Position numbers and translations under genes: made by a program. This document shows positions 4,903 to 64,000 of a stretch of 64,000 bases of DNA, one piece after another. The notes below the pieces were generated by a model. That model worked only from the letters and a program-made list of their open reading frames with translations, had not been told where the DNA came from and ran no database searches. How positions within the stretch are numbered: the stretch's first letter is position 1; each line of letters opens with the position of its first letter. Source of the DNA: Acidobacteriota bacterium (GTDB taxonomy: Bacteria > Acidobacteriota > Thermoanaerobaculia > Multivoradales > J023); the NCBI GenBank assembly GCA_029263315.1, contig JAJCXR010000046.1, forward strand, positions 1 to 64,000. Reading direction: 5' to 3'.

Positions 4903-4981
4903 TTTCTCAAGATCGATTGAAGCATCCGGCTTGAGGTCGATCTTGCGCTTATCCCAATCGTTTGCTTCGCTCTTTAGGGCT

Positions 4982-6262: not shown

Positions 6263-6364
6263 GCTCCTTAGCCTCGGCTGTTCCTCTTTGTTCGAGTCAT
6301 TTGCCATTGAATTCGCTCTCCGTTTCAAGCCTGAGCTCGGCATCTGCCGTTAGGGGGGCGGCAG

Positions 6365-12564: not shown

Positions 12565-12647
12565 GGCAGCAAATCCTCTCATCGCAAGGGCATCATATTC
12601 TGGACGTGGGTTGTTCGTTGCATTCCGGTCGCTTGTCGATCGTGACC

Positions 12648-31537: not shown

Positions 31538-34500
31538 GTGAGATTCCTCGGCCCGGTCGACGGTTTGTCGATATGGCGGGTCGGGCTGCTGGCGATATGG
31601 ACGATTTCGTGCCAACCCCCTGAGGATTCTGGGCAGAGCGAGGCCATGCCCGAGGCGCAAGAGACCTCGGTGGTGCAGGACGGAGCCGTGATCTGCCGTC
31701 CGTTGCCAGCGGAGGCTGACGTCGAGAATCAGCTCAGTCCCAGCGAGGTGCATTGCTACACCCTCGATCTCGCCAGCGGCGAATTTATCCACCTGGTTGT
31801 CGAGCAGCTCGGTGTCGATGTCACCGCCACCCTCAACGGCCCCGATGGTTCGACCTTGGTCGAGGTCGACCGCGATATTGGCTACGAGGGACCCGAGCCC
31901 TTGTTGGCGTTGGCTGAAGTGGCTGGCAAGCACACCTTGGAGGTGAAGGCCTCGGACTATCCTTGGGTGACGGGGAGATACCGAATCGAGGTGCGAGAGT
32001 GGCACGACGCTTCGCAGGTTGATCGCCTCAGGGCGAGGGCAGCGGCCCTGGTCTATGGCAAGTCGGACCTGCCACGGGCCCTGGAATTATGGCAGACCGT
32101 GGCCGACGATTTCTGGCAGGCCGAAACACTCTATTTGTTGGCGAAGCAGCAAGACGATGCGGACCAAGCCATACGCCTCTATGAGCGCAGCGCGGCGTTG
32201 TTCGCTGCGGTGGGGGATGCGTCGCGACAAGGAACCGCCCTGAGCTCAGCGGGCAACCTGTGCCGCAACGCGGGCGAGGCGGAGAAGGCGATTTCCTACT
32301 ATCATCGGGCGCTGGCTGTCCAACAGGGGGCGGGGAATCGACTCGGGGAAGCGATCGCCAAGAGCAACTTGGGGGGTGCCCATCGGACCCTAGGGGGTTA
32401 CCAAGAGGCCTTGGCACACTATGAGGCAGCCTTGAGACTGTGGGATGGTGACAAGGACTCAGACCGTATCGCCCAGACCTCCCACAATCTGGGTGTGGTC
32501 TATCGCCTGCTGGGCAGCTTTGAGCTAGCGGCGGACCACCTGACGACGGCAGAAGGTGCTTTTGCTGAGCTCGGGACGGACAAAGTCGGCTCGGAGAAAC
32601 GTCGATTGGACCGGCTCCGCGCCGCGACGCTCAATCAACTGGGCAAGCTGTATCAGCAGCAGAACGAGCCGCTCAAAGCCCTTGAGCTGCACCAACAGGC
32701 CCTCTATTTGAGGACGCAGCACGGGGATAGGCGAGGTCGATCAAATTCTTGGGTGGACATCGGCCTTGCCTACCAAGCCCTCGATCGACCCGACGATGCG
32801 CGCCAAGCTTACGGCGAGGCGTTGGGCATCCTGGAAGATCTAGATCGTCCCCGGCTCGAGGCCAAGGTGCTTCTCGCCTCGAGCCTGTTGGCCGGCACCC
32901 CAGAGCAAGAGCGACTGGCCCTGGACAGGGCGGAAAAAGCAGCCGAGCTCTACCATGGTTTCGGGGATCCGGTGGGGGAGGCTGAAAGTTTGATCAGCCT
33001 GGCAGAAAATCACGCCCGTCGTGGCGATTTGAGGCTGGCTCGCCAAGCCGCCGGCCGGGCAGGGGACCTGGTCGAAGGCTTGCGCTTGAGCTCGGTCAGC
33101 CCTGACTTTCGCGCCTCATATTTTTCCACCGTAGAGCATTTTTTTGACCTCCAGATCGATCTCCTGGTGAAATCCCACCGCCACGAGCCAAAGGCTGGCC
33201 ACGCCGCGCGGGCCCTACAGGTGAACGAGCGGGCCCGCGCTCGGTCGCTCTTGGAGATGCTGGCTGAGGCGGGAGCGGATATCCGCCGGGGTGTGGCGCC
33301 GCTCTTACTAGATCGAGAGAAGAGATTGCAGGAGGAGGTCAATCGCCATGCCCAACGGCTCCGACTTCTGAAATCGGCGGCGCTGAACCGAGTCCCCCGG
33401 ATCGAGGAAGCGCAGAAACAACAGCGCGAATCGGTCGCACTTCTGGGTGCTACCCGTTCGGAGATCCGAGCTCGTAGCCCGCGCTACGCGGCCTTGACCC
33501 AACCCCAGCCGTTGGGGCTCGAAGAGATACAGCGGCTGCTGGTGGACGATTCCACCTTACTTCTCGAATACCAGTTGGGCGAGGAACGTTCACATTTGTG
33601 GCTCGTCGGCCACGACTCCCTAGAAGTTTTTGAGCTGCCTGCGAGGCATCGAGTCGAGTCGCTGGCAAGGAAGACCTCCGAGTTGCTGAAACACAGCAAT
33701 CGGCCGGAGAGCTGGGTCTCCAGCCGTCGATTCCTCTGCGAGCTGAGTCAGCAGTTGCTTGGCCAAGTGGCCAGCCGACTGACCGCCGAACGGTTGATCA
33801 TCGTTGCCGATGGGGCGCTGCAATACATCCCATTCGCCGTACTGCCAAACCCCAACACTCCAGGAGAGTGTGCCGCCGCGCCACCCCTGATTGTCGACCA
33901 CGAAGTCGTCTATCTACCGTCGGCTTCGGTGTTGGCGGTGTTGCGGCTGGAGCCTGCGGCACGTTCCCCCGCCTCTGGCTTGGTGGCGGTATTGGCCGAT
34001 CCCGTGTTCTCACCCCTGGACGGTCGAGTCTCCTCCGAGGTTGGGTCGCCGGCACCGGTCGGTAGCATGACGCCCCGGCCCTTGCCTCGTCTGGAGCATG
34101 CTCGGGCCGAGGCAGACGGAATCCTGGCCCTGGTGCCAGCCGATCGACAATTCAGCGCCTTCGACTTCGCAGCCAGCAAAGACACCGTTCTCCAAGGCCA
34201 CCTCAAGGGCTATCAAATCATCCACTTCGCGACCCACGCCATGCTCGATACCAACCAGCCCGAGCTTTCAGGCCTGGCGTTCTCGCAAGTCGATGCCGGC
34301 GGCAGATCGCAGATCGATCCCTTCCTGCGGCTGCACGAGCTCTACAACTTGGACCTTCCTACGGAGTTGGTGGTGCTCAGCGCCTGCAATACGGCCTTGG
34401 GAAAAGAGGTGCGGGGCGAGGGGCTGGTGGGTTTGACCCGTGGTTTCATGTATGCGGGTGCCCGTCGGGTCGTGGTGAGCCTGTGGAACGTCGGCGACGA

Positions 34501-34678
34501 TAGCACCCGCCAGCTGATGATCGAGCTCTACCGCGGCCTTTTGGAAGAAAGACTGCCACCCGCTGCGGCGCTTCGCCAAGCCCAGATCTCCATCTGGAAG
34601 ACGCGACGGGCTCCTTTCCACTGGGGTGCCTTTGTTCTGCAAGGCGAGTGGAACCCGCTGCCGTCGTCGGCCGAATAA
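31538..34678 (+). CDS. Exported lipoprotein-like PPC-TPR-CHAT peptidase (module 1)
   Basis: GTG start with short signal VGLLAIWTISC; TPRs; CHAT catalytic IIHFATHAMLD and VVLSACNTALGKEVRGEGLVGLTRGFMYAGARRVVVSLWNVGD. Confidence 0.9.
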   Translation: MRFLGPVDGLSIWRVGLLAIWTISCQPPEDSGQSEAMPEAQETSVVQDGAVICRPLPAEADVENQLSPSEVHCYTLDLASGEFIHLVVEQLGVDVTATLNGPDGSTLVEVDRDIGYEGPEPLLALAEVAGKHTLEVKASDYPWVTGRYRIEVREWHDASQVDRLRARAAALVYGKSDLPRALELWQTVADDFWQAETLYLLAKQQDDADQAIRLYERSAALFAAVGDASRQGTALSSAGNLCRNAGEAEKAISYYHRALAVQQGAGNRLGEAIAKSNLGGAHRTLGGYQEALAHYEAALRLWDGDKDSDRIAQTSHNLGVVYRLLGSFELAADHLTTAEGAFAELGTDKVGSEKRRLDRLRAATLNQLGKLYQQQNEPLKALELHQQALYLRTQHGDRRGRSNSWVDIGLAYQALDRPDDARQAYGEALGILEDLDRPRLEAKVLLASSLLAGTPEQERLALDRAEKAAELYHGFGDPVGEAESLISLAENHARRGDLRLARQAAGRAGDLVEGLRLSSVSPDFRASYFSTVEHFFDLQIDLLVKSHRHEPKAGHAARALQVNERARARSLLEMLAEAGADIRRGVAPLLLDREKRLQEEVNRHAQRLRLLKSAALNRVPRIEEAQKQQRESVALLGATRSEIRARSPRYAALTQPQPLGLEEIQRLLVDDSTLLLEYQLGEERSHLWLVGHDSLEVFELPARHRVESLARKTSELLKHSNRPESWVSSRRFLCELSQQLLGQVASRLTAERLIIVADGALQYIPFAVLPNPNTPGECAAAPPLIVDHEVVYLPSASVLAVLRLEPAARSPASGLVAVLADPVFSPLDGRVSSEVGSPAPVGSMTPRPLPRLEHARAEADGILALVPADRQFSAFDFAASKDTVLQGHLKGYQIIHFATHAMLDTNQPELSGLAFSQVDAGGRSQIDPFLRLHELYNLDLPTELVVLSACNTALGKEVRGEGLVGLTRGFMYAGARRVVVSLWNVGDDSTRQLMIELYRGLLEERLPPAAALRQAQISIWKTRRAPFHWGAFVLQGEWNPLPSSAE

Positions 34679-47574: not shown

Positions 47575-48426
47575 ATGGCACGGCGTGAGACCATCGAGGA
47601 GACGATCAGCACGCTCGGCGAGACGTTGCGCCAGGGTGTGAGTCGGCATCCGAGCGGCGGCCGATTGGCTGCCTACCACCGCGACGAGCTTTCGGGCTCG
47701 GAGATGGAGGCGCTGCGGGACCATCTCTCTCTGTGCCCAGAATGCTCAGAGCTGCTACTCGATCTCAGCGGCTTCGAGCAACTCGGGACAAGTGCCGAAG
47801 CGCAGCGTTGGAAGCAACGGCAACCGGCGGTTTGGCAAGCCTTGCAATCGACGCTGGCGGCGGAAGATAGGCCGGAGTCGAGGGCGCCTGGCCGTCGACG
47901 TCAGCGGACGGTTTGGTTGCCGTTGGCGACGGCGGCGATTCTGCTGCTGATGATGGGGGCTACCCTCTGGCAGAGCCTGGACTTGGGTCGGACCCGCGAC
48001 CAGCTGGCGGCAACTGTCGATGAGCTCGCCCGTGCCGAGCAGCAGATCGTCGAGCTCGGTGAAGCGGCCACCCAGTTGGAGCCCCTTCTCGACGTGCCGA
48101 GCTTCGACCTCTTCCCGCCCGGCTACCGACGGCACGGGGAGGCGGAGCCATCCCTGGCGATCCCGCCCCAGGCGGATCTCTTTGTATTGCAGCTGCACGT
48201 TGCCGAGGCGAGGCGCCAGGCGGAGCACCGGCTGAGAATCTTGACCTCCGAAGGGGTCGAAGTGTGGGCCGCCAATGGACTCCACAGAACCCCTGAAGGA
48301 ACCTTTCGTGTTGCCCTGCCGCGCCCTTTCCTACCGAGCGGGCGCTACCGCCTGGAGGTCTATGATGTCGGAAAGCCTGCCGGCTTGCCGCTGGCCCAGT
48401 ATGATCTGGAGATCGCTTACCCTTAG
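47575..48426 (+). CDS. Membrane anti-sigma factor with zinc-finger-like motif (module 2)
   Basis: LRDHLSLCPECSELLLDLSGFEQL (HxxxCxxC), TM LPLATAAILLLMMGATLW, C-terminal GRYRLEVYDVG similar to DYRLRVYGLDG in module 1. Confidence 0.85.
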   Translation: MARRETIEETISTLGETLRQGVSRHPSGGRLAAYHRDELSGSEMEALRDHLSLCPECSELLLDLSGFEQLGTSAEAQRWKQRQPAVWQALQSTLAAEDRPESRAPGRRRQRTVWLPLATAAILLLMMGATLWQSLDLGRTRDQLAATVDELARAEQQIVELGEAATQLEPLLDVPSFDLFPPGYRRHGEAEPSLAIPPQADLFVLQLHVAEARRQAEHRLRILTSEGVEVWAANGLHRTPEGTFRVALPRPFLPSGRYRLEVYDVGKPAGLPLAQYDLEIAYP

Positions 48427-48469
48427 CTACGGGCCGCGATTTAGCGACGTCCCGCGATTTGTTCGAAGT

Positions 48470-51400
48470 GTGAAAGGAAGTCTTCTTGTGGCCGCGCTCG
48501 CCGTGTTTCCCATGGCCCCCGTGGCGTATGCCGTGGAAACAGCCGGCTTTGTCGTCGAAAGCCTTCAACCAGGTTCCGGCGGTAGCCAGGCCGGGCTCAG
48601 GGTAGGAGATGTCCTGGTCACTTGGTGGCGAGAGGCAGCCGCGAGTGGCCCCGCCAAGAGAGTGGGCGGAGAGCTCTCTTCACCCTTCGATTTCTCTGAA
48701 GTCGAGCGTGAAGAGGCTCCCCGAGGCCCCGTCAAGATCGAAGGGCGTCGGCAGGGCGAACCTTTCACCGTCGAGTTGCTTCCCGGAAGATGGGGCATCG
48801 AAGGGAGGCCCTGGTTTCCCCAGGACGCCACCGCAATCTACCTCGAAGCGAGAAAATATGTGGCGGCGGATGACCTCGATTCCGGGCTGAGACTCTTGCG
48901 GCGGCTGACCGCGAAGCTTCACCACGATGGGCGCCACAGCCATGCCGCATGGTTGTCTTTCGAGGTCGCCGACTTGCTGCTTGAAGCTCAGCGCTGGGGC
49001 GAGGCAAGGGTGGCGATGCAGGCCGGTCTTGCCGATGCCGAGGCCAGCGGCAGAGCGCAAATTCTCGCCTTGGGCCATGAGCAGCTCGGCGCTTTCCTGA
49101 AATCGCAAGACGCATTGAAAGAAGCCGTAGTGCACTATGAGCACGCGCTGGCCTTGCGCCAGGCGATGCCGGCAAATCTGGCGACGGCGGACATGCTCAA
49201 TCATCTGGGACTTCTAGCCATCGAGCTAGGAAACTTCGACGGGGCGCTGGACTTGCTCGAGCGAGGGTTGGAGATCAGCAGCGAGTTGGCACCGGATAGC
49301 ATGATGGTTGCCGATATTCGCGGCCGTCTGGCGGTGATCTTCGGCATCCGCAGCGATTTTTCCGCTGCGATGGAGCACATGCTGAGCGCCCTGGAGATCC
49401 AGGAGCGCCTGGCGCCACAGAGCTCCGACGTGGTGCAGACCTTGAGCCGTCTCGCTCTGGCGTCCCGCCGTATGGGCCGCCTGGCGGAGGCCGAGGCCTA
49501 CTTCCGCCGGGCACTCGAGCTACAGCAGCGGCTCGATCCGGACAGCTACAGCATGGCGACGGTGCTCAACAACTTGGGTGTTCTGTTGACCAAGCGGGGC
49601 GATCTGAACCGCGCCGAAGCGTATTTCTGGCGATCCCTCGAGCTCTTCGCGGCGCTGCGGCCGGAGAGTCTGGCCGTGGCCGGAAACTATTCGAATCTGG
49701 GCGGAATATTCGAGGCTCGCGGTAACCTAGAAGCCGCGGAGCGATACCATCGTCAGGCTTTCGATCTCGTCGAGCGGTTGACTCCAGAAAGCCCCAATCT
49801 CGGTTTCATGCTCGATTCGCTGGGCAACTTGGCGCTCGAACGCCACGATCCGGTGGCGGCCAAGCGGTCCTTTGAGCGCGCCCTGGCGCTTCGCGAGCGC
49901 GTCTCCCCCGGCAGCATTTCGGTGGCCCACAGCTGGCGCGACTTGGGCCGTACCGCCGCCGCGGCAGGTCAGTTGGAGGAAGCCGAGCGCCTGCTTAGAC
50001 GCGCCCTCGACATCGAAAGGCGGGTGGCACCGGGCAGCCTGGACGTCGCCCATACCCTGGATCGGCTCGGCGAGGTCGCCGCCCGTCGGCAACAGCTCAG
50101 GCTCGCCGAGGGTTACCATCTAGAGGCGCTGGGAACCCACCGTCGCCTAGCCCCCGGAAGCCTGGCGGAGGCCATTTCGTGCCAGCGGCTGGCATCCATT
50201 TATCGGCGTCTCGGACGGGATGTGGAAGCCGGCAATTTTTATGCTCTGGCGATCGCCGCCCTCGAGGTCCAAAATCACCGCGTGGGTGGTTCCTATGAGG
50301 ATCGATCGGAATTTGCCGCTGCTCGGGCACCCCTCTATGCGGACTCTGTCGATCTGCTGGTCGAGCAGGGGCGGTTCGACGAGGCCTTCCAGGTGCTCGA
50401 ACGATCCCGCAGCCGCGCATTCCTCGAGATGCTCAGCCAGCGGGACTTGAGCTTCGCCGCCGATGTGCCGGCTGAGCTCCTCGAGCAGCAGCGCCTGGCC
50501 GATCAGCGCTACGATCAAGTTCTCGGCCAGCTGGCTCGGCTCTCGGCGCAAACCCCAGAGGGTGGCGAAGAAGCGCTTCACGATGAGCTCGGCAAAGCAC
50601 GTCGTCAACAGCATGAGATCAAAGCCAGGATTCGCGCCGCTTCGCCTCGCCTTGCGGCCTTGCGGGATGCCGAACCGCTCGACCTGCAAGCGACCCGACA
50701 GCTGCTTTCCCCTGGCACGCTAATGCTCGCTTACTCCTTAGGTGAGACGGGTGGTCATCTCTTTGTTATAGGCCACGGCGAGGAGCAGGTCCGCGTCTTT
50801 CCGGTCGCCATAGGATTGACTGCCCTACGCGACGAAGTGGCGAGGCTGCGCAAATTGCTGGGCTCCGGTGAGTCACTCGATGCCATCCGCTTCCGTGCGC
50901 AGCGCCTCGGAGAGCTTCTGCTCGCTCCGGCCAGGCATTTGATTGCCGATGCTGAGCGGCTTCTGATCTTGCCCCAAGGGCCACTGCACATACTGCCCTT
51001 CTCTGCGTTGCTTCTGCCGACCGAAACGGGTGAGTGGCGCTTTCTCATCGAGCACAAGCCGTTGACCGTCGTCGCCTCTGCAACCGTTTTTGCGATGCTG
51101 AGAAAGAGGGAGCTCAGCCCCGGTGAGATACGTCTCAGTGCTTTCGGAGATCCCACCTATTCCGCTCCTGAGGCGTCTGCCTCGCTCGAGCAGCCGGCCC
51201 TGAGGGCGGCGCTCGAGCTGGGCTTGCGACTCGATCCGTTGCCGACGGCGCGGGCCGAGGTCGAGGCCCTAGAGAAGCTCTTTCCGGAGGGGACCAGGAC
51301 CTTCTTGGGCGCCGCGGCCACCGAAGAAGCGGCCAAGTCCGTTGCCCCGAGCAGCAATGTCTTGCACTTTGCGTGTCACGCTGTGGTGGACGATCGCTTC

Positions 51401-51808
51401 CCCCTCGAGTCGGCGCTGATTCTCAGTCTACCGACCGACCCGCAGCACAAGGGAGACAACGGGCTGTTGCAGGCTTGGGAGATCTTCGAGGAAATGCGCC
51501 TCGACGCCGAGCTGGTCACCCTCTCGGCTTGCGATACCGCCCTCGGCAAGGAGCTGGCGGGCGAAGGCATGATCGGGTTGACCCGAGCCTTCCAGTACGC
51601 CGGCGCACGCAGCATTCTGGCATCTCTGTGGGCGGTCAACGACGCCAGCACGGCCGGGCTCATGGAGCAGTTCTATGGCCAGCTGAAACTGGGGGCGGCG
51701 AAAGACCTAGCCTTGCGGCAAGCCCAGTTGACGCTGCTACGAAATGGCGGCGATTTCGCCCATCCCTTTCATTGGGCTGCCTTCATCTTGGTCGGCGACT
51801 GGCGATAG
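48470..51808 (+). CDS. Exported PDZ-TPR-CHAT peptidase (module 2)
   Basis: Likely GTG 48470 (VKGSLLVAALAVFPMAPVAYAVE signal; ORF opens at 48275); PDZ-like LQPGSGGSQAGLRVGDVLV; TPRs; CHAT LHFACHAVVDD and VTLSACDTALGKELAGEGMIGLTRAFQYAGARSILASLWAVND. Confidence 0.9.
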   Translation: MKGSLLVAALAVFPMAPVAYAVETAGFVVESLQPGSGGSQAGLRVGDVLVTWWREAAASGPAKRVGGELSSPFDFSEVEREEAPRGPVKIEGRRQGEPFTVELLPGRWGIEGRPWFPQDATAIYLEARKYVAADDLDSGLRLLRRLTAKLHHDGRHSHAAWLSFEVADLLLEAQRWGEARVAMQAGLADAEASGRAQILALGHEQLGAFLKSQDALKEAVVHYEHALALRQAMPANLATADMLNHLGLLAIELGNFDGALDLLERGLEISSELAPDSMMVADIRGRLAVIFGIRSDFSAAMEHMLSALEIQERLAPQSSDVVQTLSRLALASRRMGRLAEAEAYFRRALELQQRLDPDSYSMATVLNNLGVLLTKRGDLNRAEAYFWRSLELFAALRPESLAVAGNYSNLGGIFEARGNLEAAERYHRQAFDLVERLTPESPNLGFMLDSLGNLALERHDPVAAKRSFERALALRERVSPGSISVAHSWRDLGRTAAAAGQLEEAERLLRRALDIERRVAPGSLDVAHTLDRLGEVAARRQQLRLAEGYHLEALGTHRRLAPGSLAEAISCQRLASIYRRLGRDVEAGNFYALAIAALEVQNHRVGGSYEDRSEFAAARAPLYADSVDLLVEQGRFDEAFQVLERSRSRAFLEMLSQRDLSFAADVPAELLEQQRLADQRYDQVLGQLARLSAQTPEGGEEALHDELGKARRQQHEIKARIRAASPRLAALRDAEPLDLQATRQLLSPGTLMLAYSLGETGGHLFVIGHGEEQVRVFPVAIGLTALRDEVARLRKLLGSGESLDAIRFRAQRLGELLLAPARHLIADAERLLILPQGPLHILPFSALLLPTETGEWRFLIEHKPLTVVASATVFAMLRKRELSPGEIRLSAFGDPTYSAPEASASLEQPALRAALELGLRLDPLPTARAEVEALEKLFPEGTRTFLGAAATEEAAKSVAPSSNVLHFACHAVVDDRFPLESALILSLPTDPQHKGDNGLLQAWEIFEEMRLDAELVTLSACDTALGKELAGEGMIGLTRAFQYAGARSILASLWAVNDASTAGLMEQFYGQLKLGAAKDLALRQAQLTLLRNGGDFAHPFHWAAFILVGDWR

Positions 51809-52328: not shown

Positions 52329-52916
52329 TCATGATGCGCCGCTTTCGGTCGGCCCCTCGGCAAGCTCGACGGTTTGGGTGGCGAAGCCCTCGAGGAAACC
52401 CTCAGGTAGCACCCCCAGCCAAGACCCTTCGACCCTTCCGTCGACCCCGGCATGAAGGGTCTCCGGGACGCCTGGAAGGGAGTAGTCGGACCGGAAGCGA
52501 TCCGGATCTGTCGGCACGAAGACCTCAAAAGGGAGCGCCTGGTCGCGAACGTAGGATCGCGTGGCGTCCATGGAATCGATGCTGATGCCCACCACGTTGA
52601 AGTGCTCTCCCAGCTGTTCCTCGAACGCCAACCAGTTGGGCAAATTTCCCCGGCAGGCCGGGCAGCTGGTTGTGAAGACGAAGAGCATCGTTTCGCGATC
52701 GGCATCGTTGAAGGTCAGCTTGACGTCGTGACCTTCGAGATTCTTCGCATCGATCGGCGGCAGGAGATCACCCACGGCGGGGCTGGCTGACGGCGGCGAA
52801 GCCCGCGGTGACCTCAAGTCGCGATTCTCTGCCACCAATACCACCACGAGGCTCGCCAGACCTACCAAGATCAGATGCAGGGCCACCTGGTATCCGCCGG
52901 CTTTGGGAAAGCTCAT
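52329..52916 (-). CDS. Membrane-anchored TlpA/redoxin-like thioredoxin-fold protein
   Basis: Start ATG 52916 (MSFPKAGGYQVALHLILVGLASLVVVLVAE; ORF to 52982); VFTTSCPACRGNLPNWLAFEEQLG CxxC motif. Confidence 0.85.
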   Translation of the reverse strand: MSFPKAGGYQVALHLILVGLASLVVVLVAENRDLRSPRASPPSASPAVGDLLPPIDAKNLEGHDVKLTFNDADRETMLFVFTTSCPACRGNLPNWLAFEEQLGEHFNVVGISIDSMDATRSYVRDQALPFEVFVPTDPDRFRSDYSLPGVPETLHAGVDGRVEGSWLGVLPEGFLEGFATQTVELAEGPTESGAS

Positions 52917-53092
52917 CGATGTCTCCTCCGTTGTTGGGAACTTGTGCGTCCCGCGGTCGGGCTCTCTTTTACCAAGATCCACTTCCAGCGCGGCGGTTTA
53001 CGCGCAACCTAGAAATGTTGGAGGGTTCCCGAGTCCTGGCGATGCCGGTGTCGCCCTTTCTTCGCCCGCAGCGCCCGGGCGCCATCGACCGC

Positions 53093-53977
53093 TCAGTTGC
53101 CTCGATTGGCCCCGGCGCTGTAACGGACGACCCGGTGGATACGGTGCAGGTCCTCGGAATTGCATTCGGTGATGATGTCGAGCTGGGGAAAGCGGTGATG
53201 ATCCTCGGGATCCACCCTCCAGGCAGCGGTGAAGCGCTGCTCCTTGTCGAGAAACACGGCACCATAGCCGGCCAGGGGGGTGACGGGAAAACCCGACGAC
53301 CATAGGGTTTCAGCCACCCGTTTGTCTTCAAAATCGTAGAGGCCGTCGTCGAGCTCTCGCCGTACCCGGGGGATCTCCCGCGCCAGCGGCTCGAGGCAGC
53401 GGGTGGCGATGAAATAGCCGATGCCCGTCGCCATGTCACAGCGGTAGGGACGGGTATAGGGCGTTTCGTAGCGCGGATCTTCGCATTTGCCGACGTGCCA
53501 GGTGGCGTCAGGGAGGACCTTGCGGACCTCCAGCACACGTCCCGAGTAGGGACTGGCCCGGAAGGGCTTTTTCAACAGCTGCCGCGGGTTGACGTAGCAA
53601 TCGTCGTCCACCTTGAAGACATAGCGCAAATGTTGGGGCATTTTCTGGTGCACAAAAGCCATGGCCCGCAGCACCTTGAGCACCAGGTACTCGTAGTTGT
53701 CCCGGCTGTCGACGCTCAGCACGTCGCCCCGCAGACGGGCCGGCCGGCCGGGCTCCCCAACCACAAAGAGGTGGCGTAGGCCGAGGGGGGAGAGGTCGTT
53801 GATCCATGTGGCCCGCAGGGCCCGACGGCGGGCGCCGTGGCGGCGACAGGAAATGATCAATACCAGCACGTCTTGGCCCGGTAGCGTACGGGGTGGGCCG
53901 CCGGCACGAAGGCTCGGGGTACCGGGGGCCCAGCTCGCCGGACGAGACGGTTTGGAGGTCGACGGGGGACGGTTCAT
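53093..53977 (-). CDS. GT31-like (galactosyltransferase/fringe-type) glycosyltransferase
   Basis: ATG 53977 overlaps the upstream stop (ATGA); LVLIISCRRHGARRRALRATWI, YEYLVLKVLRAMAF, YVFKVDDDCYVNP, GIGYFIATRCLEPL, DFEDKRVAETL are GT31-type motifs. Confidence 0.8.
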   Translation of the reverse strand: MNRPPSTSKPSRPASWAPGTPSLRAGGPPRTLPGQDVLVLIISCRRHGARRRALRATWINDLSPLGLRHLFVVGEPGRPARLRGDVLSVDSRDNYEYLVLKVLRAMAFVHQKMPQHLRYVFKVDDDCYVNPRQLLKKPFRASPYSGRVLEVRKVLPDATWHVGKCEDPRYETPYTRPYRCDMATGIGYFIATRCLEPLAREIPRVRRELDDGLYDFEDKRVAETLWSSGFPVTPLAGYGAVFLDKEQRFTAAWRVDPEDHHRFPQLDIITECNSEDLHRIHRVVRYSAGANRGN

Positions 53978-56900
53978 CGGGCCACCCCGCGGCGGCTTGA
54001 CTCCGGATTGGCCAGCCGGGCTTCGACGGGCCTTTCTTCGGGTTGTACCTGCCCGGCCGGCATCTCCTCGGCCGGCGTCACCCCGGCCAGCATCCTCTCG
54101 GCCGGCATCGTCTCGGCCAGCATCGCGAGGGCCGAGGGGCGCTCCCCGTGGAGAACAAAAACGCCTCGCCTCCAGGTGGCCTCTACTAGGGCGCGGGCCG
54201 AACGGCGTCCCAGCCAGAACGCCGCCGGCCCTGCGGAGCGGCTCGGCTTGCGGTGGAAGTGCGGCCGGCTCAGATCCTCCGGTAGCAGCCGGGCCTCGCC
54301 GCCCACCTCGAGGATCCAGGCCCCGGGGAAGTCGGTGCCGGCGATCACGAAGGCGCCCTTGAGCAGGCACAGGACGCGGGCCAGCTCCTTCCTTTGGCCC
54401 ACCCGGCGACAGCGGTTGCAGTACCGCACTCCCCAGACCTCACCGTCGCGGCGCCGCGTCCCGTCCGTCGGCAGGTCGCTGGGCAACAGGGCCCGTAGCT
54501 GCACCCGACGATGGGGCGGCAGCTGGCGAGCCGCCAGGGCCCGGTCGATGTCTTGCTGGTGCGTCGCGTCGGTGACCCGGTGGGAGGTGAAGTAGATCAC
54601 CGCAGGCCCGTCATCGGGCCTAACGTCGTGGCCGTCGTCGGGACCGCCGTCGGACCCGTCGGGGGCGGACCTCAAGCGCTGGCAGAGCTCGGTGGCGGCG
54701 CGGTCGATGGCGTCATGGTGGGCGGCGATCTGGCTCGGCATGCGGTTGGCGACAAAGCGGCAGTCGGTGGCCAGGTAAACATCCGGGATGTCGTACAGCA
54801 GGCGCTCGACGGCCAGGAAGGGGGTGCCGTCGAGTAGCCAGCGGCCGTCGCGCCAGTGACGCCTGATCAAGGCCTGGGCACCGCGCCGAGACAGCAGGTA
54901 GGCGCCGGCACCCCACGCCTTGCACACCGGGTCGATGTCCTGGCGGGGCACCAAGGCGCAGCGGGTCCGCCGCAGGGCGAGGTAGTGCAGGACGTCGGTG
55001 TTGTTGCACTGCAGTTGCAGGATGTTCCAATCCGGAGGCGCGGCGGCCAGCAGATCCGCCAGGCGGTGGCCCGGCCATGCCTCGAAACCCTCGAAGACCA
55101 TGTCGTCCTCCAGCACGCAAATCCTTTCGAGGCCGGGGGTGTCGAGCATCTGGCGAGCGGCCTGCAGGTGGCTGAGCAGGGTGGCCAGATCCGCCTTGGG
55201 GCTGTTGGCACCGAGGCGATTGAGGTACGACACACCGTCGAGCTCACCCTGCTGAACATCGTGCAGGCGCTGACCATCGAGGGCCGGGAGGCGACGCCAG
55301 CTGCGTGCCCCCACGGCCCGTAGCTGACCTTCGGTGTGGCTCCGTCGGTCCCCGGCTCGATCCAGGTTGAGGTACCAGATGGGTAACCCGCTGACATGTT
55401 GCCGTTGGGCCGCCAGGCGGTGGGTGTTGGCGGCGGAGTTGAGCTGCACCCCGGCCCGCGCCTTGGCCAGGCTGCCGGTGGGGGCCACGAACTGCACCAG
55501 GTGATCGAGCCGTCGGGAGTCGTTGAGCACCTCGAGATCGAAGACGCGGAAGGCTTCGGGATGGAGTCGCGCCAACCGATCGCTATGCTCGGCGTAGAGA
55601 TCCCAGTAGGCACCCAGGGCCTCGTCCAGCCCCTGGCAGTGATCGAGCTTCGGGTAACAGGCGTCCCACTGCGGCACACTGCGCCAGCGGCTACCGTCGT
55701 GGGACATCCAGTGGTTGGCGTTGTAGGGGGCGACTTTGGCCAGGTAGCTCTGGACGGTGGCCTGCCGTTGGCGGCGCAGGCAGACGAAACGAGCTCGGAT
55801 GCCCCGACGCTCCGCCCAGCCGCGGATGGTCTCGACGTGGGGCAGGTAGTAGAAGGCCACGTCGCCGAAGACGTCCCCCCCTGCGTCGGCCAGCCGCTCC
55901 AGGTGCGCTTCCACCTGGGCCGGCGCCGCGTCCCAGGGCAGCAGCGGCGGCCGCTCGTGGCTGATCGGGGCGCCATCGAAGGCTTCCGCCAGGACTTGGG
56001 AGAGGCTGACCGTGCCGCAGCGTCCGGTGCCTAGGCCGATCACCAGGGTGCGACCGGGGCCGCGGTCCGGGGCTTCCAGGGCCCGGCGATCGAGCCCACC
56101 GGCCAGGCGGCCGAGGTCTTGTGGCCGGACGACGTCTTCGATACCACCGAGGCCGAGCTTGCGCAGCTGAAGACGGCGAAAAAAGGGCACCCGCTGCCAG
56201 CGGAAGGCATCGTACTCGGGGTTGCGCTCTGAGGTGTTGAAGGCGCTGAAGTAGGGCAGCACGGTGGCCTTCAACCGGCCCCGGGCTCGCCAGAAGAACT
56301 GCAGGTGGTCCAGGGTCTTGAGCTCGTCGTCCCAGCCGATCTGGCGGATTTTGGAGCTGCGGGCAAGGTAAAATTGGGGCACAAAATCGTAGACCGGAAA
56401 ACCCGCCACCAGGCCACGGCTGGTCTCGAAGACCTGGCGCAAGACGCCCCGATGGTGGTTTGTCGAGTGGTGGTTTATCGGGCTGCGGTTTCCTGAGCCT
56501 TGGTCCACCTCGAAACATCCCCACCAGCGGGCTGGACGATAGTAGCCGGCCACCAAGTCGAGCTCGGGCACCGTCTCCAGCACCTGCCAGGCCGCTTCGA
56601 GCCGGGTCTCCTCGTCGAAGAGGGTGTCGTCGTCGACCACCATCACGTAGGGGGTCTTCACCTGTCCGACCAAGAAGTTGCGGCCGTAGGAGGCCCCCGA
56701 ATCCCGGGGCAGGAGGTAGTAGGCGGTGATCAAACCCAGCTCGTCGTCGAAGGTACGATAACCGGAGTCGTCCGCCACCAGGATGGGGATGGCGGGGAAG
56801 CGCTTGCGGATGCTGCGCACGCAGCGTTCCAGTGACGATGGCCGCAGTAGGGTCTTGATGATGATGGTGACTGTCGCCTGGACGCCGTCCAGGGGGCTGC

Positions 56901-57003
56901 GCTCGGCGGCGGCCGGAGCCCGCCCTTGCCGAGGCGGTGGCAAGCGAACGGTGGCCCCCGTGGGTTGATCCAAGGCCGACGGGTGGAGGGTTTCGAGGCT
57001 CAT
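53974..57003 (-). CDS. Fusion protein: GT12-like glycosyltransferase + sulfotransferase + GT25-like glycosyltransferase + C-terminal Cys/repeat region
   Basis: VTIIIKTLLRPSSLERCVRSIRKRFPAIPILVADDS...SYGRNFLVGQVKTPYVMVVDDDTLFD and VPQFYLARSSKIRQIGWDDELKTLDHLQFF (GT12-like); TLVIGLGTGRCGTVSLSQVL (sulfotransferase PAPS loop); IWYLNLDRAGDRRSHTEGQL...CVLEDDMVF...WGAGAYLLSRRGAQAL (GT25). Confidence 0.8.
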   Translation of the reverse strand: MSLETLHPSALDQPTGATVRLPPPRQGRAPAAAERSPLDGVQATVTIIIKTLLRPSSLERCVRSIRKRFPAIPILVADDSGYRTFDDELGLITAYYLLPRDSGASYGRNFLVGQVKTPYVMVVDDDTLFDEETRLEAAWQVLETVPELDLVAGYYRPARWWGCFEVDQGSGNRSPINHHSTNHHRGVLRQVFETSRGLVAGFPVYDFVPQFYLARSSKIRQIGWDDELKTLDHLQFFWRARGRLKATVLPYFSAFNTSERNPEYDAFRWQRVPFFRRLQLRKLGLGGIEDVVRPQDLGRLAGGLDRRALEAPDRGPGRTLVIGLGTGRCGTVSLSQVLAEAFDGAPISHERPPLLPWDAAPAQVEAHLERLADAGGDVFGDVAFYYLPHVETIRGWAERRGIRARFVCLRRQRQATVQSYLAKVAPYNANHWMSHDGSRWRSVPQWDACYPKLDHCQGLDEALGAYWDLYAEHSDRLARLHPEAFRVFDLEVLNDSRRLDHLVQFVAPTGSLAKARAGVQLNSAANTHRLAAQRQHVSGLPIWYLNLDRAGDRRSHTEGQLRAVGARSWRRLPALDGQRLHDVQQGELDGVSYLNRLGANSPKADLATLLSHLQAARQMLDTPGLERICVLEDDMVFEGFEAWPGHRLADLLAAAPPDWNILQLQCNNTDVLHYLALRRTRCALVPRQDIDPVCKAWGAGAYLLSRRGAQALIRRHWRDGRWLLDGTPFLAVERLLYDIPDVYLATDCRFVANRMPSQIAAHHDAIDRAATELCQRLRSAPDGSDGGPDDGHDVRPDDGPAVIYFTSHRVTDATHQQDIDRALAARQLPPHRRVQLRALLPSDLPTDGTRRRDGEVWGVRYCNRCRRVGQRKELARVLCLLKGAFVIAGTDFPGAWILEVGGEARLLPEDLSRPHFHRKPSRSAGPAAFWLGRRSARALVEATWRRGVFVLHGERPSALAMLAETMPAERMLAGVTPAEEMPAGQVQPEERPVEARLANPESSRRGVAR
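54055..54129. repeat. 15-bp coding minisatellite, 5 copies
   Basis: GGCCGGCATCTCCTC / GGCCGGCGTCACCCC / GGCCAGCATCCTCTC / GGCCGGCATCGTCTC / GGCCAGCATCGCGAG; encodes 5-aa repeats MLAET MPAER MLAGV TPAEE MPAGQ on the minus strand. Confidence 0.85.
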
Positions 57004-58040
57004 GGTGTGGGACCTCCTGAGGTCTGGGGTGGTGCCAGCAGGCTGCGGTGGCGGTGATTGAATTGGCGGGCGTAGGGGTATAGCTCATCGGCCTGGTAGC
57101 CGAATCCGTGGAAGCGATGCAGGCGCCAGGGGGCCGGCGATGGGTCGACGGGTAGGGGATTGGGGGCACCTACCACCGAGTAGGTGAAACGGAAACCGCA
57201 GCCCGCCAGCACCCGATCGGTGCGGTCTTCGAGAGCCCCGTTGGGATACACGAAGTGTGGGCTGACGGCTCCCAAGTGGTGGCCTAGGAGGCATCGACAG
57301 GCCATGGCGTCGCGCCGCAGATCATGGTCCGTGCGCTGGTTCGCCGTGTCGTGAAACAGCGAGTGGGCGGCGATGGTGCAATGGGAAAAGCGGTCCAGGG
57401 CGGCGATCTGGGGCCAGCCCATGTTGCGGTGCACAAAGGGCGAGCAGCGCACGGCGGCGGTGGACACGTCATCGGTCTGCCGCCGCAGCTGGTGCATGAG
57501 GAACCCTCGTCGGCGGGGGGAGGTGCGACATCGATACTCGAAGTCCGCCGCCCCCTGCTCGGGGCACGACCAGGCCAACTCGTCGTTGGCTGCGTCGCCC
57601 AGGCGCAGGACACGTCGGTGGGTGGCGGCGAAGCGGGCTCGGACCTCTTCCCACCAAAAAATGCCCCGGGCCGAGGCCTGACGCGTCGCGATGCCGGGGC
57701 AGACCGCCAGCAGGATGGGAATCTGCTCCTGGCGCAGCCAGTATTCCAGGGGCTCGAAGGTGCCGAGGTGGGCGTCGTCGAAACAGATCAGCAGATGAGG
57801 GCCGGGGCGGGGCCGATGCCGCAATCCTTCGAGCTCTTGGGCGGCGATGAGACAAAACCCCAGCGATTCCAAGAGACGGATTTCTGCCAGGCAGCGCTGC
57901 GGTGTGATGTCGAGATCGTGCACCGTCAGGCGCTGGGGGTCGGTCTCCAAACCGTGGTAGACCAGGATACTGACGAAGCAGCGGTCGCGGTCCAGGGGGC
58001 GGAATGCATCACCGAGGGAGGTGGGCAGGGGAGAGCCCAT
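57000..58040 (-). CDS. Polysaccharide deacetylase-family protein
   Basis: ATG 58040 within ORF 57000-58715: FVSILVYHGLETDPQ...HLLICFDDAHLGTFEPLEYWLRQEQIPILLAVCPG...HSLFHDTANQRTDHDLRRD, YPNGALEDRTDRVL. Stop/start ATGA overlap with the next gene. Confidence 0.8.
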   Translation of the reverse strand: MGSPLPTSLGDAFRPLDRDRCFVSILVYHGLETDPQRLTVHDLDITPQRCLAEIRLLESLGFCLIAAQELEGLRHRPRPGPHLLICFDDAHLGTFEPLEYWLRQEQIPILLAVCPGIATRQASARGIFWWEEVRARFAATHRRVLRLGDAANDELAWSCPEQGAADFEYRCRTSPRRRGFLMHQLRRQTDDVSTAAVRCSPFVHRNMGWPQIAALDRFSHCTIAAHSLFHDTANQRTDHDLRRDAMACRCLLGHHLGAVSPHFVYPNGALEDRTDRVLAGCGFRFTYSVVGAPNPLPVDPSPAPWRLHRFHGFGYQADELYPYARQFNHRHRSLLAPPQTSGGPTP

Positions 58041-58843
58041 CAGCGGGCCTCGAGGGCAACCAGGTAGTTGACCGCCCGTCGGCGCAGCGCGGGGAGGCGC
58101 CGGCCCAGGTGGCGCAAGTGGAGATCCCAGCGGGCACGCCGTGCCTCGGCGATGAAGAAGCGGTGGGGAAAAAACAGGCTGCCCCGGGCATCGCGCAGCT
58201 CGAAGCCGCTGTCGTCGGCCAGGCGGTGGAATTCCCGCGGCGTGTAACGACGGTGACTGACATCCTCGGCCGGGGGCGTCGACGTAGGCTGGCCCTCGGT
58301 TGCCGCGCTGAGCAGGCCTCGCAGCCTGGCCAACCCCCGATGCAGCGGGATGAAGAGATCGTCCGCCCAGGGGTGGCGGTTCCAGATCTGCAACACCGCC
58401 ACACCACCCGGCGTCAGCATGCTGTGTAGATGCTGCAGCAGGGCCCTGGCATCGTCGAAGTACTCGACGAAACCTAGGCCGATGAGGCCGTCGTAGGGGC
58501 CCGGAAGGTCCCCGGCCAGGGCGTCCCGGACTTCGAATCGGCAGGACGACTCGAGCCCCGCTTCGGCGGCGTTGCGACAGGCCTGCTCGATCATGCCGGC
58601 GCTGAAGTCGATGCCGTGCAGATGGTAGCCGGCCCGGGCCAGGACCAGGCTGGCGTGGCCACAACCGCAGCCCAGATCGAGGATGCGGCCGCCCGGTCGG
58701 ATGTGTCGACGGCACAGCTCGACGCCGTCATCGCGGCGCCACTGGATGCCCAGGGCGGGATAGTCATGGCGGTGATAGAGGTTTTCCCAGGCCCTCTTCT
58801 CGCGCTCGAATTTGGCCAGGATCGAGGCACTTTCGCATTGCAT
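58040..58843 (-). CDS. SAM-dependent class I methyltransferase
   Basis: ATG 58843 (MQCESASILAKFEREKRAWENLYHRHDYPALG); GGRILDLGCGCGHASLVLARAGYHLHGIDFSAGMIEQA motif I; LTPGGVAVLQIW. Confidence 0.9.
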   Translation of the reverse strand: MQCESASILAKFEREKRAWENLYHRHDYPALGIQWRRDDGVELCRRHIRPGGRILDLGCGCGHASLVLARAGYHLHGIDFSAGMIEQACRNAAEAGLESSCRFEVRDALAGDLPGPYDGLIGLGFVEYFDDARALLQHLHSMLTPGGVAVLQIWNRHPWADDLFIPLHRGLARLRGLLSAATEGQPTSTPPAEDVSHRRYTPREFHRLADDSGFELRDARGSLFFPHRFFIAEARRARWDLHLRHLGRRLPALRRRAVNYLVALEAR

Positions 58844-61349
58844 AGGAATCTCCTTCTCGGTGGTGGTTGGCCGCCTTGTGGTGGTTAGCCGCCCCGCGGT
58901 GGAGCAACTCGGCGATGGCTCGGCGACGGGTTTCATAGAGCCGAGGATCGGTGACGAAGTCGTCGACCTCGGTGATCAGGTCGGAGAGATCGAGCAGGCG
59001 CTGGGCCTGGCGGGCAGCCTGAGCCGACAGCCGGCCGCGCTGTAGCTCGCTGGCCAGGCGGCTCAGCAACTCATGGTCTTGGGAACCCAATTGCAGGGTT
59101 TCCAGGCGCAGCGAGCTGTAGGGTTCGAGCTCTGGGCCCGGGTAGAGCAGGTTGCCGTTGCCGGAGCCCCTGAGGACGCCGTCCAAAGTTTGCTGGGCCC
59201 GCCAGGGGCTGGCGGGCCAGTGGGGACGCTGGTCCATGTTGCGGTGCCAGTGGCAGGTTTCCCAGTAGAGCAAGGCTCCAAAGTCATAGTGGAAGGTCAG
59301 CCAGAAGAGGATGCGCTGGTGGAGGGGGGCGGCTTCGAGCCGTAGGCTGGGAAACGGCGGGGCGTCGTCGGTGAGGTACCACCATAGGCTGGCCCCGCGA
59401 CGCCGCAGCTCCCGGATCCGGTCCGGGTGGCGTGCCACCCAAGCGACGTGTGGACACCAAACATCCACGTAGGGGGCCAGCGCCACCGTCGGGTCGTCCC
59501 GGAAGAAGGTCAAGACGACTTCGAGACGTGGGGCGCGGCGACGGCAGGCGGCGAGGAAAGGTTCGATGCGCCCATAGAGCTCGGCGCCGGGCTCGTCGTA
59601 GGTATAAAGAAAGACCCGCGCCTCGCCCCGTTGGCTTTCGACCTGAGCCGCCCAGCGGGGTAGCTGGTCGAGCCAGTGCTGCTCCGCCGTGCTGGGGAAG
59701 GTGCCGTCCAGCTCCAGCAGACGATTCGAGGCGCGAGCCGCCCACAGCAACCCGAAGCGCTGTTTCTGGCGCCGCAGGATGGCCGGCGAGCTCGGCCCCC
59801 GGGGGATCTGGGGGGCGTGCCACCAGTTGCAGGAGCCCACCAGGGGGTCGGCGTGCAGGCGGCGTCGGGCAAGGAATTCGATCCAGCGTTCGAGGCTGGC
59901 CCCGTCGAGCTCGCGGCGGCCATAGAAACGCGCGACGGCATGGTCGTCGAGGCCCACCAGGACGGGCAGAGAGGGGCGTTGTGGCAGCTCCGGGTCGAGA
60001 ATGCGCAGCCGCATCTCGAAGGTCGTGAGCACCGCGCCTGCGATGCGCAGGCTCACCAGGCCCAACATCAGGCCGGGCCGGGAGTGGGCCGGCACCTCGA
60101 TACGGATCCAGAAGACCCGAGATGTGTCCGCGGCGAGTCCCAAGGGCGTGCGGGGACACAGGGCGTCGGGCCAGGGGTCGGTGCGACCCGGGACCTCTCC
60201 GGAGGTTGGCGAGGAGCCCTCGGAGGTGGCCTGAATCTCGATCGCACGGGCGGTGAACCAGGCGATATGGGCGGCGACGCCGGAGTCGTCGCGGTCCTCG
60301 CACCTTGCCACCACCAAATCGACCTCGGTCAGCTCTTCGAGGCTGTGCAAGACGATCTGGGCGGCGGCCATGCCGCCCTTCGGCGCCCAGAGATCGAGGC
60401 GGGTTGGGTCGTCGGCCGGCCCCAGCCGGGGAAGGGACGAGCGGGGCTGCTTGATGAATTCGGGCATAGCCACGGCGACGGCGGCCATCTCGGCGGCGGG
60501 ACCCCGTGGGGGAGCGGCCCGGCGCAGCTCCAGCCAGGCCTCCAGTCGGCGGACAGTGACCTCGGCTCGATGTCGTACCAGCGTCGGGTCCGGGGCCTCC
60601 GGATGCAGGTTGGATAGGGCCCGGTGCGCCGCAACCAAGGACTTCCGGTGCTGCTCTAAACGAATCGTGAGTAGCTCCTCGACCCTCTTGGGCAGGGCCG
60701 ACAAGCCGCGGCGCAGGTCTCGCAGCCGGCGCAGCAGTCGGCACATGGTCTCGGCCAGGTGCCCCATCGGGGTAACGAAGCACAGGTGGTCAATCGTCAG
60801 CTCGCCCACCGCCGGTGGATTCGGTAGGCCATCGGTCGCCGGCCACAGCACAAACCCCGCCCGCCGCAGGGGGAAGGTCAGCGCGCCATCGCCATCGCCG
60901 CCCCACGAGGCCCGGTGGAGACCCTTCAAGTCGACCTGCCAGGCCCCGCCGGAGTGGGGACAGGGGCCGTAGGAATAGAGCTCGCCGCCGTCGTCCTCCA
61001 CCAGCAGGACGAGCTGGATCGTCGCTTCCGACGCCCGGGACGCCGACTCGGGCGGGGTCACCGAGGAATTCGCTGGGGGCTGAGCCCTGTGACTCCACTC
61101 GATGTCTACCCAGTGGTGCAGTGGTGTGACGGTCAGGGGCGGTCCGAGCAGCAGGACCCGTTCCCCGGGCTGGTTCTCGAAACGGTAACTCAACCGCAGC
61201 CGTCCGGCTGCGGCCGTCAGATGGGCCGGACTCGCTTCGTCCACTCGCCAGCCCGAGGCCGTCCGCCGATCCAAGGCCCGCAGGACGCCGGATGGCGGAA
61301 GGTTGTGGCGTCGTCGGGCGGATGCAGTGTGCACGGTATTCAAATACAT
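58764..61349 (-). CDS. DUF4091-like glycoside-hydrolase-type protein
   Basis: 861 aa; ARVFLYTYDEPGAELYGRIEPFLAACRRRAPRLEVVLTFFRDD, PYVDVWCPHVAWV, ASLWWYLTDDAPP, GNGNLLYPGPE. Pattern of DUF4091 proteins. Confidence 0.7.
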   Translation of the reverse strand: MYLNTVHTASARRRHNLPPSGVLRALDRRTASGWRVDEASPAHLTAAAGRLRLSYRFENQPGERVLLLGPPLTVTPLHHWVDIEWSHRAQPPANSSVTPPESASRASEATIQLVLLVEDDGGELYSYGPCPHSGGAWQVDLKGLHRASWGGDGDGALTFPLRRAGFVLWPATDGLPNPPAVGELTIDHLCFVTPMGHLAETMCRLLRRLRDLRRGLSALPKRVEELLTIRLEQHRKSLVAAHRALSNLHPEAPDPTLVRHRAEVTVRRLEAWLELRRAAPPRGPAAEMAAVAVAMPEFIKQPRSSLPRLGPADDPTRLDLWAPKGGMAAAQIVLHSLEELTEVDLVVARCEDRDDSGVAAHIAWFTARAIEIQATSEGSSPTSGEVPGRTDPWPDALCPRTPLGLAADTSRVFWIRIEVPAHSRPGLMLGLVSLRIAGAVLTTFEMRLRILDPELPQRPSLPVLVGLDDHAVARFYGRRELDGASLERWIEFLARRRLHADPLVGSCNWWHAPQIPRGPSSPAILRRQKQRFGLLWAARASNRLLELDGTFPSTAEQHWLDQLPRWAAQVESQRGEARVFLYTYDEPGAELYGRIEPFLAACRRRAPRLEVVLTFFRDDPTVALAPYVDVWCPHVAWVARHPDRIRELRRRGASLWWYLTDDAPPFPSLRLEAAPLHQRILFWLTFHYDFGALLYWETCHWHRNMDQRPHWPASPWRAQQTLDGVLRGSGNGNLLYPGPELEPYSSLRLETLQLGSQDHELLSRLASELQRGRLSAQAARQAQRLLDLSDLITEVDDFVTDPRLYETRRRAIAELLHRGAANHHKAANHHREGDSYAMRKCLDPGQIRAREEGLGKPLSPP

Positions 61350-62557: not shown

Positions 62558-62614
62558 GCTGGTGGCTAGCGGGATATCCTACCGTCACCAATTCTCTGAC
62601 CTTTGGGAGCGCCG

Positions 62615-64000
62615 ATGACCCAGGTATATGACCTCTCACCACCCCGCAACTGGCAAGACTTCGAAGACCTCTGCCTCGACCTCTTCCGCCAGCTGTGGAA
62701 GGCGCCGGGGGCCATGAAGCATGGCCGGGCGGGCCAGCCCCAAGCGGGCGTCGATGTCTTCGGCTTGCCCGCCGGTGGCTCGGACTGGTTCGGAGTACAA
62801 TGCAAGAAGAAGCTGGGCGGCGAGGTCACGGAGGATGAGCTGACGGCGGAAGTGGAGAAGGCGAAGGGCTTCAATCCGAAGCTGACCCGCTTCATCTTGG
62901 CCACCACTGCCCGCTGCGACGGTTCGATCCAGCAGACGGCCCGCCAGTTGACGGACGCTGGGCCGTTCGAGGTTGTGGTGTACGACTGGGATCATTTCTG
63001 CATCGATCTCTCCGGACGCACCGAGCTGCTGCGCAAGCACTTTCCCGACCATTTCGCCGGGGACCCGTCAGATCTGCGCAGCCACTACCTGCGCCATCTC
63101 TTCACCGAGCTCGACGTGGTGCAAGTGTCGAAGGTGAGCCGCGATCCCAAGAAGGATATCCGCCTGTCGTCGGTCTACATCGACCTCGACGTGATGGCTC
63201 AGGTCCATGCGATGCCTTCAGATAATGGCGTGGAGATCCAGCTCAAGGGAGATAACCTGTATCTAAAACACATCATGGAGCGCGCTCGGCGGCAAGGGGC
63301 AGCCGCGGATTCCGGTGACTTTTCGCGACGTTGTACCGCCCTGGAGGCCATCGTGGCATCACCTCGCCGGGTGCTCACCGGCCGCGGCGGCAGCGGTAAG
63401 AGCACCTTCGGACGCTACCTCTGTCTGTGCCTGGCAGGCCAACTGCTCGGCGACGAAACGCTGAACCACCGTCACCTCGACGGCCAATGGGCTGACGAAG
63501 CACCCGAGCTTCGGCCCTGGCCCCATGGCGAATTGGTGCCGTTCTTTGTGGAGCTCCGACGCTTCGTCCGCTCGGCGGAGCATTTTCCCGCCCTCGGCGA
63601 GGCTGGGCAAGCGCGGCATCTGGTCGATTACCTGGCGACCCTCGGGCCCCAGGACGCCGAGATGGGCAAGGTGGTGCGCGGTGCCATGGCCTCGGGGGCT
63701 TTGGTGGTGCTCGACGGTCTCGACGAGACTCCGGCGGCCGAAGAGGTGCGCGAACGCTTGCAGCAGGTGATCGCGGGCTTCGTGCGTACCTACCCCGAGT
63801 GCCGAGTCTTGGTGACCAGCCGTCCCTATGCTTACGAGGTGGGGCAGGAGTGGCGCCTCGACGAGGCGGGCTTCTTGGAGGAGTCCTTGGCGCCTTTCGA
63901 CCATGCCAAGATCGAGCGCTTCGTGACCGACGCCTATGCCGCCTTCGCGGCGCGGAATCGTCTCGACGATGAGGATTTGCAGCCGTTGGTGGCGGATCTT
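62615..64000 (+). CDS. PD-(D/E)xK (Mrr-like) nuclease domain fused to NACHT NTPase; 3' end outside the window
   Basis: Translated by hand from ATG 62615, open through 64000 (462 codons). N-terminal FEDLCLDLFRQLW...QPQAGVDVFG...WFGVQCKKK (D...QxK nuclease core); Walker A VLTGRGGSGKSTFGRYL; Walker B ALVVLDGLDETP; VLVTSRPYAY. Not in the supplied ORF track because no stop lies in the window. Confidence 0.9.
   Translation, partial: MTQVYDLSPPRNWQDFEDLCLDLFRQLWKAPGAMKHGRAGQPQAGVDVFGLPAGGSDWFGVQCKKKLGGEVTEDELTAEVEKAKGFNPKLTRFILATTARCDGSIQQTARQLTDAGPFEVVVYDWDHFCIDLSGRTELLRKHFPDHFAGDPSDLRSHYLRHLFTELDVVQVSKVSRDPKKDIRLSSVYIDLDVMAQVHAMPSDNGVEIQLKGDNLYLKHIMERARRQGAAADSGDFSRRCTALEAIVASPRRVLTGRGGSGKSTFGRYLCLCLAGQLLGDETLNHRHLDGQWADEAPELRPWPHGELVPFFVELRRFVRSAEHFPALGEAGQARHLVDYLATLGPQDAEMGKVVRGAMASGALVVLDGLDETPAAEEVRERLQQVIAGFVRTYPECRVLVTSRPYAYEVGQEWRLDEAGFLEESLAPFDHAKIERFVTDAYAAFAARNRLDDEDLQPLVADL

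Follow-up and report, generated by a model that had tools for sequence, protein, structure and literature searches.

What is made by five tightly coupled genes in the genome of an Acidobacteriota bacterium, and what do their products share with the animal enzymes that some of them resemble? Five consecutive minus-strand ORFs occupy positions 53093-61349 of the window, the 64,000-nt stretch of DNA that was analyzed as a whole, and were originally predicted to form a coupled operon for a possibly sulfated, deacetylated, and methylated glycan. ORF coordinates and junctions bore out the five genes with their overlapping ends, and the domain assignments of all five held up in profile or structure tests (Table 1).

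Table 1. Operon genes and P0002 domains, with window positions and the basis of each assignment
Feature	Assignment	Position	Strand	Basis
P0005	GH123/DUF4091-type, beta-N-acetylgalactosaminidase fold, 861 aa	58764..61349	(-)	PF13320, 8k2j match, DE motif, hydropathy
P0004	SAM-dependent methyltransferase, 267 aa	58040..58843	(-)	PF13489, sequence
P0003	NodB-type polysaccharide deacetylase, 346 aa	57000..58040	(-)	PF01522, 4wcj match, motifs
P0002	1009-aa fusion of GT12, sulfotransferase, GT25, and degenerate GT25-like tail	53974..57003	(-)	
P0002 residues 1-300	GT12 (B4GALNT1-like) domain	56104..57003	(-)	9h6j match, tree, residue check
P0002 residues 311-540	PAPS-dependent-type sulfotransferase (ST) domain	55384..56073	(-)	alignment, model, relatives
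P0002 residues 541-771	GT25 domain, motif LEDD	54691..55383	(-)	PF01755, phrog_2835
P0002 residues about 781-960	short, degenerate partial GT25 repeat	54124..54663	(-)	phmmer/blastp, weak
P0001	GT31, beta-1,3-galactosyltransferase-like, 294 aa	53093..53977	(-)	PF01762, Foldseek

A five-gene unit and its surroundings

The P0005 and P0004 genes overlap by 80 nt, with the P0004 ATG (58843) lying within the 3' end of the P0005 gene, the P0004/P0003 junction is a TGATG at 58038-58042, and ATGA overlaps connect P0003 with P0002 (57000-57003) and P0002 with P0001 (53974-53977). The internal starts of P0004 and P0002 are credible because a ribosome-binding site, AGAAGGAG, lies 7 nt 5' of the P0004 ATG and an AGGAGG is present upstream of the P0002 gene. 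Chance is no explanation for five successive overlapping genes with coherent function. An AhpC/TSA-redoxin gene (52329-52982) on the same strand, ~110 bp downstream of the operon, could be part of the same transcript. Sequence and hydropathy gave neither a signal peptide nor a clear membrane helix for any of the five proteins, all of which look cytoplasmic. The GC3 of the operon genes (0.78-0.85, versus 0.60-0.76 in seven other window genes) is higher, suggesting that the operon has a history different from that of the rest of the window.

As originally noted, the window yielded no flippase, polymerase, or sugar-nucleotide gene; no other glycan-assembly genes were found in the rest of it, and no export gene was found in the window either. 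An acceptor gene was likewise not found in the window. A capsule or O-antigen locus was rejected, as neither a polymerase, a flippase, nor an initiating transferase was found in the window, and so was a prophage location, as no structural genes were found.

The larger ORFs outside the operon comprise RHS-repeat, adhesion-like, protease, CHAT, and signaling genes. Two RHS-repeat genes with an ISAZ013-type transposase between them lie at 1453-12678, a small TIR domain-FGE-sulfatase fusion protein is encoded at 23412-24086, and two TPR-CHAT proteins are encoded at 31538-34678 and 48275-51808, with genes for an ECF sigma factor and a zinc finger (zf-HC2) ahead of the latter. At the end of the window (62603-64000; the gene extends as far as position 65635 of the contig; L025:2604-7474), a NACHT protein carrying an FGE-sulfatase domain at its C-terminus precedes a template repeat and then a reverse transcriptase. 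Of the 13 sites at which the 120-nt repeats of this locus differ, 12 fall on adenines of the template, and the locus looks like a diversity-generating retroelement, the template of which had no match in the window.

Enzymes encoded by the operon

The assignment of the GT12 domain of P0002, for which a Pfam search gave no specific model, rests on its match to human B4GALNT1 (9h6j; E=1.1e-26 over residues 19-245, 227 aligned residues). The match covers the catalytic domain of this GM2/GD2 synthase (CAZy GT12, 9H6J-L, PMC12217166), whereas P0002 lacks the N-terminal non-catalytic domain and carries its GT12 domain fused to ST and GT25. Upon comparison with the published UDP-GalNAc site of B4GALNT1 (PMC12217166), we found K284, R288, D356, and D358 (the DxD) as well as Y501 and R505 to be kept, the latter two assigned via a YxxxR motif common to relatives, outside the direct alignment to the human chain. 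Three residues of the site are changed, namely, N437 to Q, R457 to T, and H483 to N, the last at a position likewise assigned through relatives. N437 and R457 are GT12-specific residues, and a bacterial GT12 close to the window copy (L060) also has Q and T at both. Owing to these three substitutions, the donor and metal use of the P0002 domain may differ from those of B4GALNT1. Judged from the sequence, membership of the GT12 family is sound, with GalNAc as a possible donor.

The ST domain shares the 5'-phosphosulfate loop, the Arg/Ser 3'-phosphate motif, and possibly the fold with TPST1/2, Cpz8, and Pfam Sulfotransfer_4; unlike these PAPS sulfotransferases, it sits fused between two glycosyltransferases and, on its own, falls below the Pfam cut-off (Sulfotransfer_4, 15.4 bits versus 22.8, E=0.017). 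Four of its relatives (L042, L118, L121, L211) score above that cut-off. The loop reads GTGRCGTVSL in P0002 (pattern GxGxGR..T), and, in an alignment restricted to the ST domains, G13, G15, G17, R18, T21, R101, and S109 are invariant in the 12 rows of P0002 and 11 relatives, including the Arg and Ser, 8 apart, of the 3'-phosphate motif. The AlphaFold model of the domain (pLDDT 87) gave TPST1/2 and Cpz8 among the top Foldseek matches, at E ~4e-4 to 1e-3 and TM ~0.5, with P-loop kinases close behind. At the level of sequence comparison, its identity as a sulfotransferase is confirmed by the relatives above the cut-off and by the motifs, with a weak fold resemblance in agreement. Elsewhere, the genome carries a PAPS synthase, an ATP sulfurylase-APS kinase fusion (L128). 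The GT25 domain matches PF01755 (Glyco_transf_25; E=2.5e-6, 28 bits versus a cut-off of 24, residues 544-714) and phrog_2835 (6.4e-19), and phmmer and blastp comparison of GT25 with the C-terminal ~230 aa of P0002 indicated a weak, degenerate partial GT25 repeat.

P0001 matches Galactosyl_T (PF01762) with E=7e-15 and 55.8 bits against a cut-off of 23, has its DxD as DDD at 124 and an ED at 217, with E217 and D218 unchanged throughout an alignment of 22 rows, and yielded a model with a mean pLDDT of 76 and a core above 90. In Foldseek, B3GALT5 came top (E=3.9e-12), and the first 34 matches were all GT31-family glycosyltransferases. Domain, DxD, ED motif, and fold are common to P0001 and the GT31 beta-1,3-galactosyltransferases B3GALT5 and B3GALT6, unlike which P0001 has no membrane anchor.

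Both P0004 (Methyltransf_23, PF13489, E=2e-17) and P0003 (Polysacc_deac_1, PF01522, E=1.3e-5) score above their Pfam cut-offs; P0003 additionally matches 4wcj (E=2.6e-6) and carries the NodB/CE4 motifs FDD (88-90, motif 1), HSLFH (227-231, motif 2, HSxxH), and YPNG. P0005 scores 37.1 bits (E=3e-9, cut-off 23.1) with PF13320, GH123_cat, which we take to be the former DUF4091. Its top solved match is 8k2j (E=1.8e-11), with the DE of which a catalytic-type DE dyad at residues 585-586 is aligned. We infer that 8k2j is the beta-N-acetylgalactosaminidase NgaDssm, as well as the numbering offset used for the Group 3 residue H479, at whose aligned position P0005 has a Leu. While PF13320 and the DE dyad are common to P0005 and the GH123/DUF4091 enzymes (NgaDssm, PMC11087588), P0005 differs in having an unassigned N-terminus of ~300 aa, no signal peptide, and no Group 3 His. 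In a study that covers the closest solved relatives of P0005, NgaDssm released Gal-beta-1,3-GalNAc and cleaved GalNAc4S (PMC11087588), activities that would fit a product of GT12, GT31, and ST. The analogy is limited by the distant relationship of P0005 and by its missing Group 3 His.

Relatives in bacteria and phages

The full set of five genes was found in this genome alone. No P0002 orthologue was present among 58 relatives, and P0005 and P0003 had only distant matches in relatives, so that the five-gene set is not syntenic in them, an outcome named at the outset as counting against the proposed pathway; sub-pairs recur elsewhere. GT12 domains as such are present in two further genomes from this phylum, in 184 Salinibacter phages, in 22 viral contigs, and at no fewer than 14 loci on genome contigs from several bacterial phyla, one of these loci (L061) being prophage-like. 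A tree of 60 GT12 rows places human B4GALNT1 amid sequences of phages and bacteria, and the GT12 rows together with the human protein form a clade apart from generic GT2 (98/98, with 3 outgroup rows and long branches). The window GT12 pairs with a cyanobacterial sequence (96/91) in the same tree, its closest GT12s being cellular (Chlorogloea, Krumholzibacteriia). With one eukaryote fragment, a small outgroup, and long branches, no direction of transfer is readable from this tree. The view of GT12 and GT31 as mainly animal families nevertheless has to be given up, as both are widespread in phages, GT12 is present in many bacterial phyla, and B4GALNT1 is nested within. The INPHARED phages gave no GT31 match. 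A mostly open-access literature, without CAZy, contained no GT12 in bacteria or phages and no GT12-sulfotransferase pairing, and within the same scope no publication describing such an operon was found, in line with the proposal of an undescribed pathway; absence of this kind is not proof.

Running HMMs for GT12, GT31, and ST over all collected loci, we observed strong GT12 matches right next to the ST (ST then GT12) in 7/10 unique viral ST loci (Fisher 8e-8 versus control). Among the unique viral GT31 loci, 10/31 had a strong GT12 match, frequently within a single protein (Fisher 5e-6 versus control). The control, 80 viral GT2 loci from a GT2 alignment search, had none in its 62 unique loci. 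Some of the rows used to build the queries for GT31 and ST were GT12-linked, and with the query rows removed, GT12 was present in 5/8 ST loci (p=5e-6) and 6/27 GT31 loci (p=5e-4). Viral scans in which one GT2 or GT25 protein served as the query gave no matches. GT12 and GT31 share one protein in L037, L045, L046, L040, L097, and L021. On the Methylomagnum ishizawai plasmid pRS11DPr2, a glycosyltransferase cluster has ST flanked by GT25 genes, at 38% identity to P0002 over ST and GT25; it lacks a strong GT12 or GT31 and, unlike the window operon, has an ABC exporter. The GT12-ST, GT12-GT31, and ST-GT25 pairings hence recur in unrelated genomes with varying gene orders and fusions, which we take as evidence for activities serving one product.

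The settings of these relatives differ. In Salinibacter phages and their relatives, ST-GT12 lies directly downstream of the major head protein gene (phrog_10), as in OR896226.1 (29037-30790, L026), where 15_1_39/15_1_40 encode sulfotransferase and GT12, and likewise in 183 further Salinibacter phage records; the proteins are annotated as hypothetical in every record among those listed. The two Salinibacter ruber phage genes overlap, and each product has ~34% identity to P0002, but they are separate genes by the major head protein, without GT25, GT31, GH, or deacetylase. The GT12-GT31 fusions L037, L045, and L040 are encoded a few kb upstream of a terminase, with the portal next in L045 and L040. 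Within the head module, the phage GT12, ST, and GT31 enzymes most likely decorate virions or host glycans, phages presumably glycosylating their heads. Two to four tandem GT31-like genes, an apparent phage glycosyltransferase expansion, are found in the viral contigs L035, L073, L083, L087, and L096. The bacterial GT12 L060 belongs to a surface-glycan-type locus with LicD, GT9, an ABC exporter, and a glycerophosphotransferase, its LicD gene adjoining GT12, and on a Chloroflexi contig a LicD-like domain is fused to GT12 amid phage genes (L061:8176-9768).

Possible products of the operon

On balance, we think it somewhat more probable than not that the operon encodes a cytoplasmic assembly and decoration line for a short HexNAc-containing, probably sulfated glycan, with either a lipid or a protein as the acceptor. 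A beta-linked HexNAc (GalNAc if the enzyme works like B4GALNT1) would be added by the GT12 domain, a beta-1,3 hexose by P0001, and a further hexose by the GT25 domain; the sulfotransferase domain would sulfate the chain with PAPS, P0003 and P0004 would modify the amino sugar, and P0005 may trim or recycle beta-HexNAc units, with the GT12-ST-GT25 fusion possibly holding related steps on one polypeptide. Of the predicted coupled pathway, the co-occurrence of building, deacetylating, methylating, and sulfating enzymes stands; what we infer is their joint action on one glycan, along with the order of steps, the sugars, the linkages, and the acceptor. Weighing against the assembly line are the single occurrence of the full set, the changed GalNAc-site residues, the missing H479, and the window without an export, polymerase, or acceptor gene. 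In its chromosomal, non-phage setting, the window copy would more probably have a glycoconjugate of the cell surface as its target.

A wider reading, which we entertain tentatively and consider rather doubtful, is that GT12, GT31, and ST form a mobile sulfoglycan-decorating toolkit common to bacteria and tailed phages (with virion heads as the target in the latter) that both predates and is ancestral to B4GALNT1. The operon would then be the most elaborate version of this toolkit in a cell, with a sulfated, deacetylated, and methylated Gal-GalNAc-type glycan as its product. It is unlikely, in our judgment, that the operon is domesticated phage cargo, with a phage-derived GT12-ST-GT25 and GT31 serving superinfection exclusion via an altered surface receptor and with the deacetylase, methyltransferase, and GH recruited later: every GT and ST domain does have phage relatives, the operon GC3 stands above that of the other window genes, the operon is absent from relatives, and the neighbors are defence-like (the NACHT protein with its retroelement, CHAT, TIR), but no phage structural gene or tRNA was found nearby, the closest GT12s are cellular, and the phage loci have no relative of GH123 or the deacetylase.

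NodB, NodS, and NodH are the same types of enzyme and act jointly in the cytoplasm, which, together with the NodB motifs of P0003 and the absence of export machinery nearby, speaks for a Nod-factor-like pathway. Its product would be a small oligosaccharide of amino sugars, either soluble or linked to a lipid, that is deacetylated, N-methylated, and sulfated and acts as a metabolite or signal. We give this only a slim chance, as homologues of NodC and NodA are missing from the operon, Pfam gave no NodS match in it, and its GT families are unrelated to chitin synthesis. Very improbable, and already disfavored, is a catabolic or salvage locus in which P0005 degrades GalNAc glycans next to coincidental neighbors: GH123-type enzymes are characterized as degradative glycosidases (PMC11087588), yet a signal peptide, a transporter, and a kinase are all absent, the three GT domains and the ST are biosynthetic, and the genes overlap.

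Fused GT-sulfotransferase enzymes would be useful glycoengineering tools, and the ST-GT12 genes next to the head genes of the Salinibacter phages, which are culturable, make sulfated virion glycans directly testable. If GT12 and GT31 act in bacteria and phages as they do in animals, these genomes would hold a prokaryotic reservoir, and possibly the origin, of ganglioside-type synthesis.
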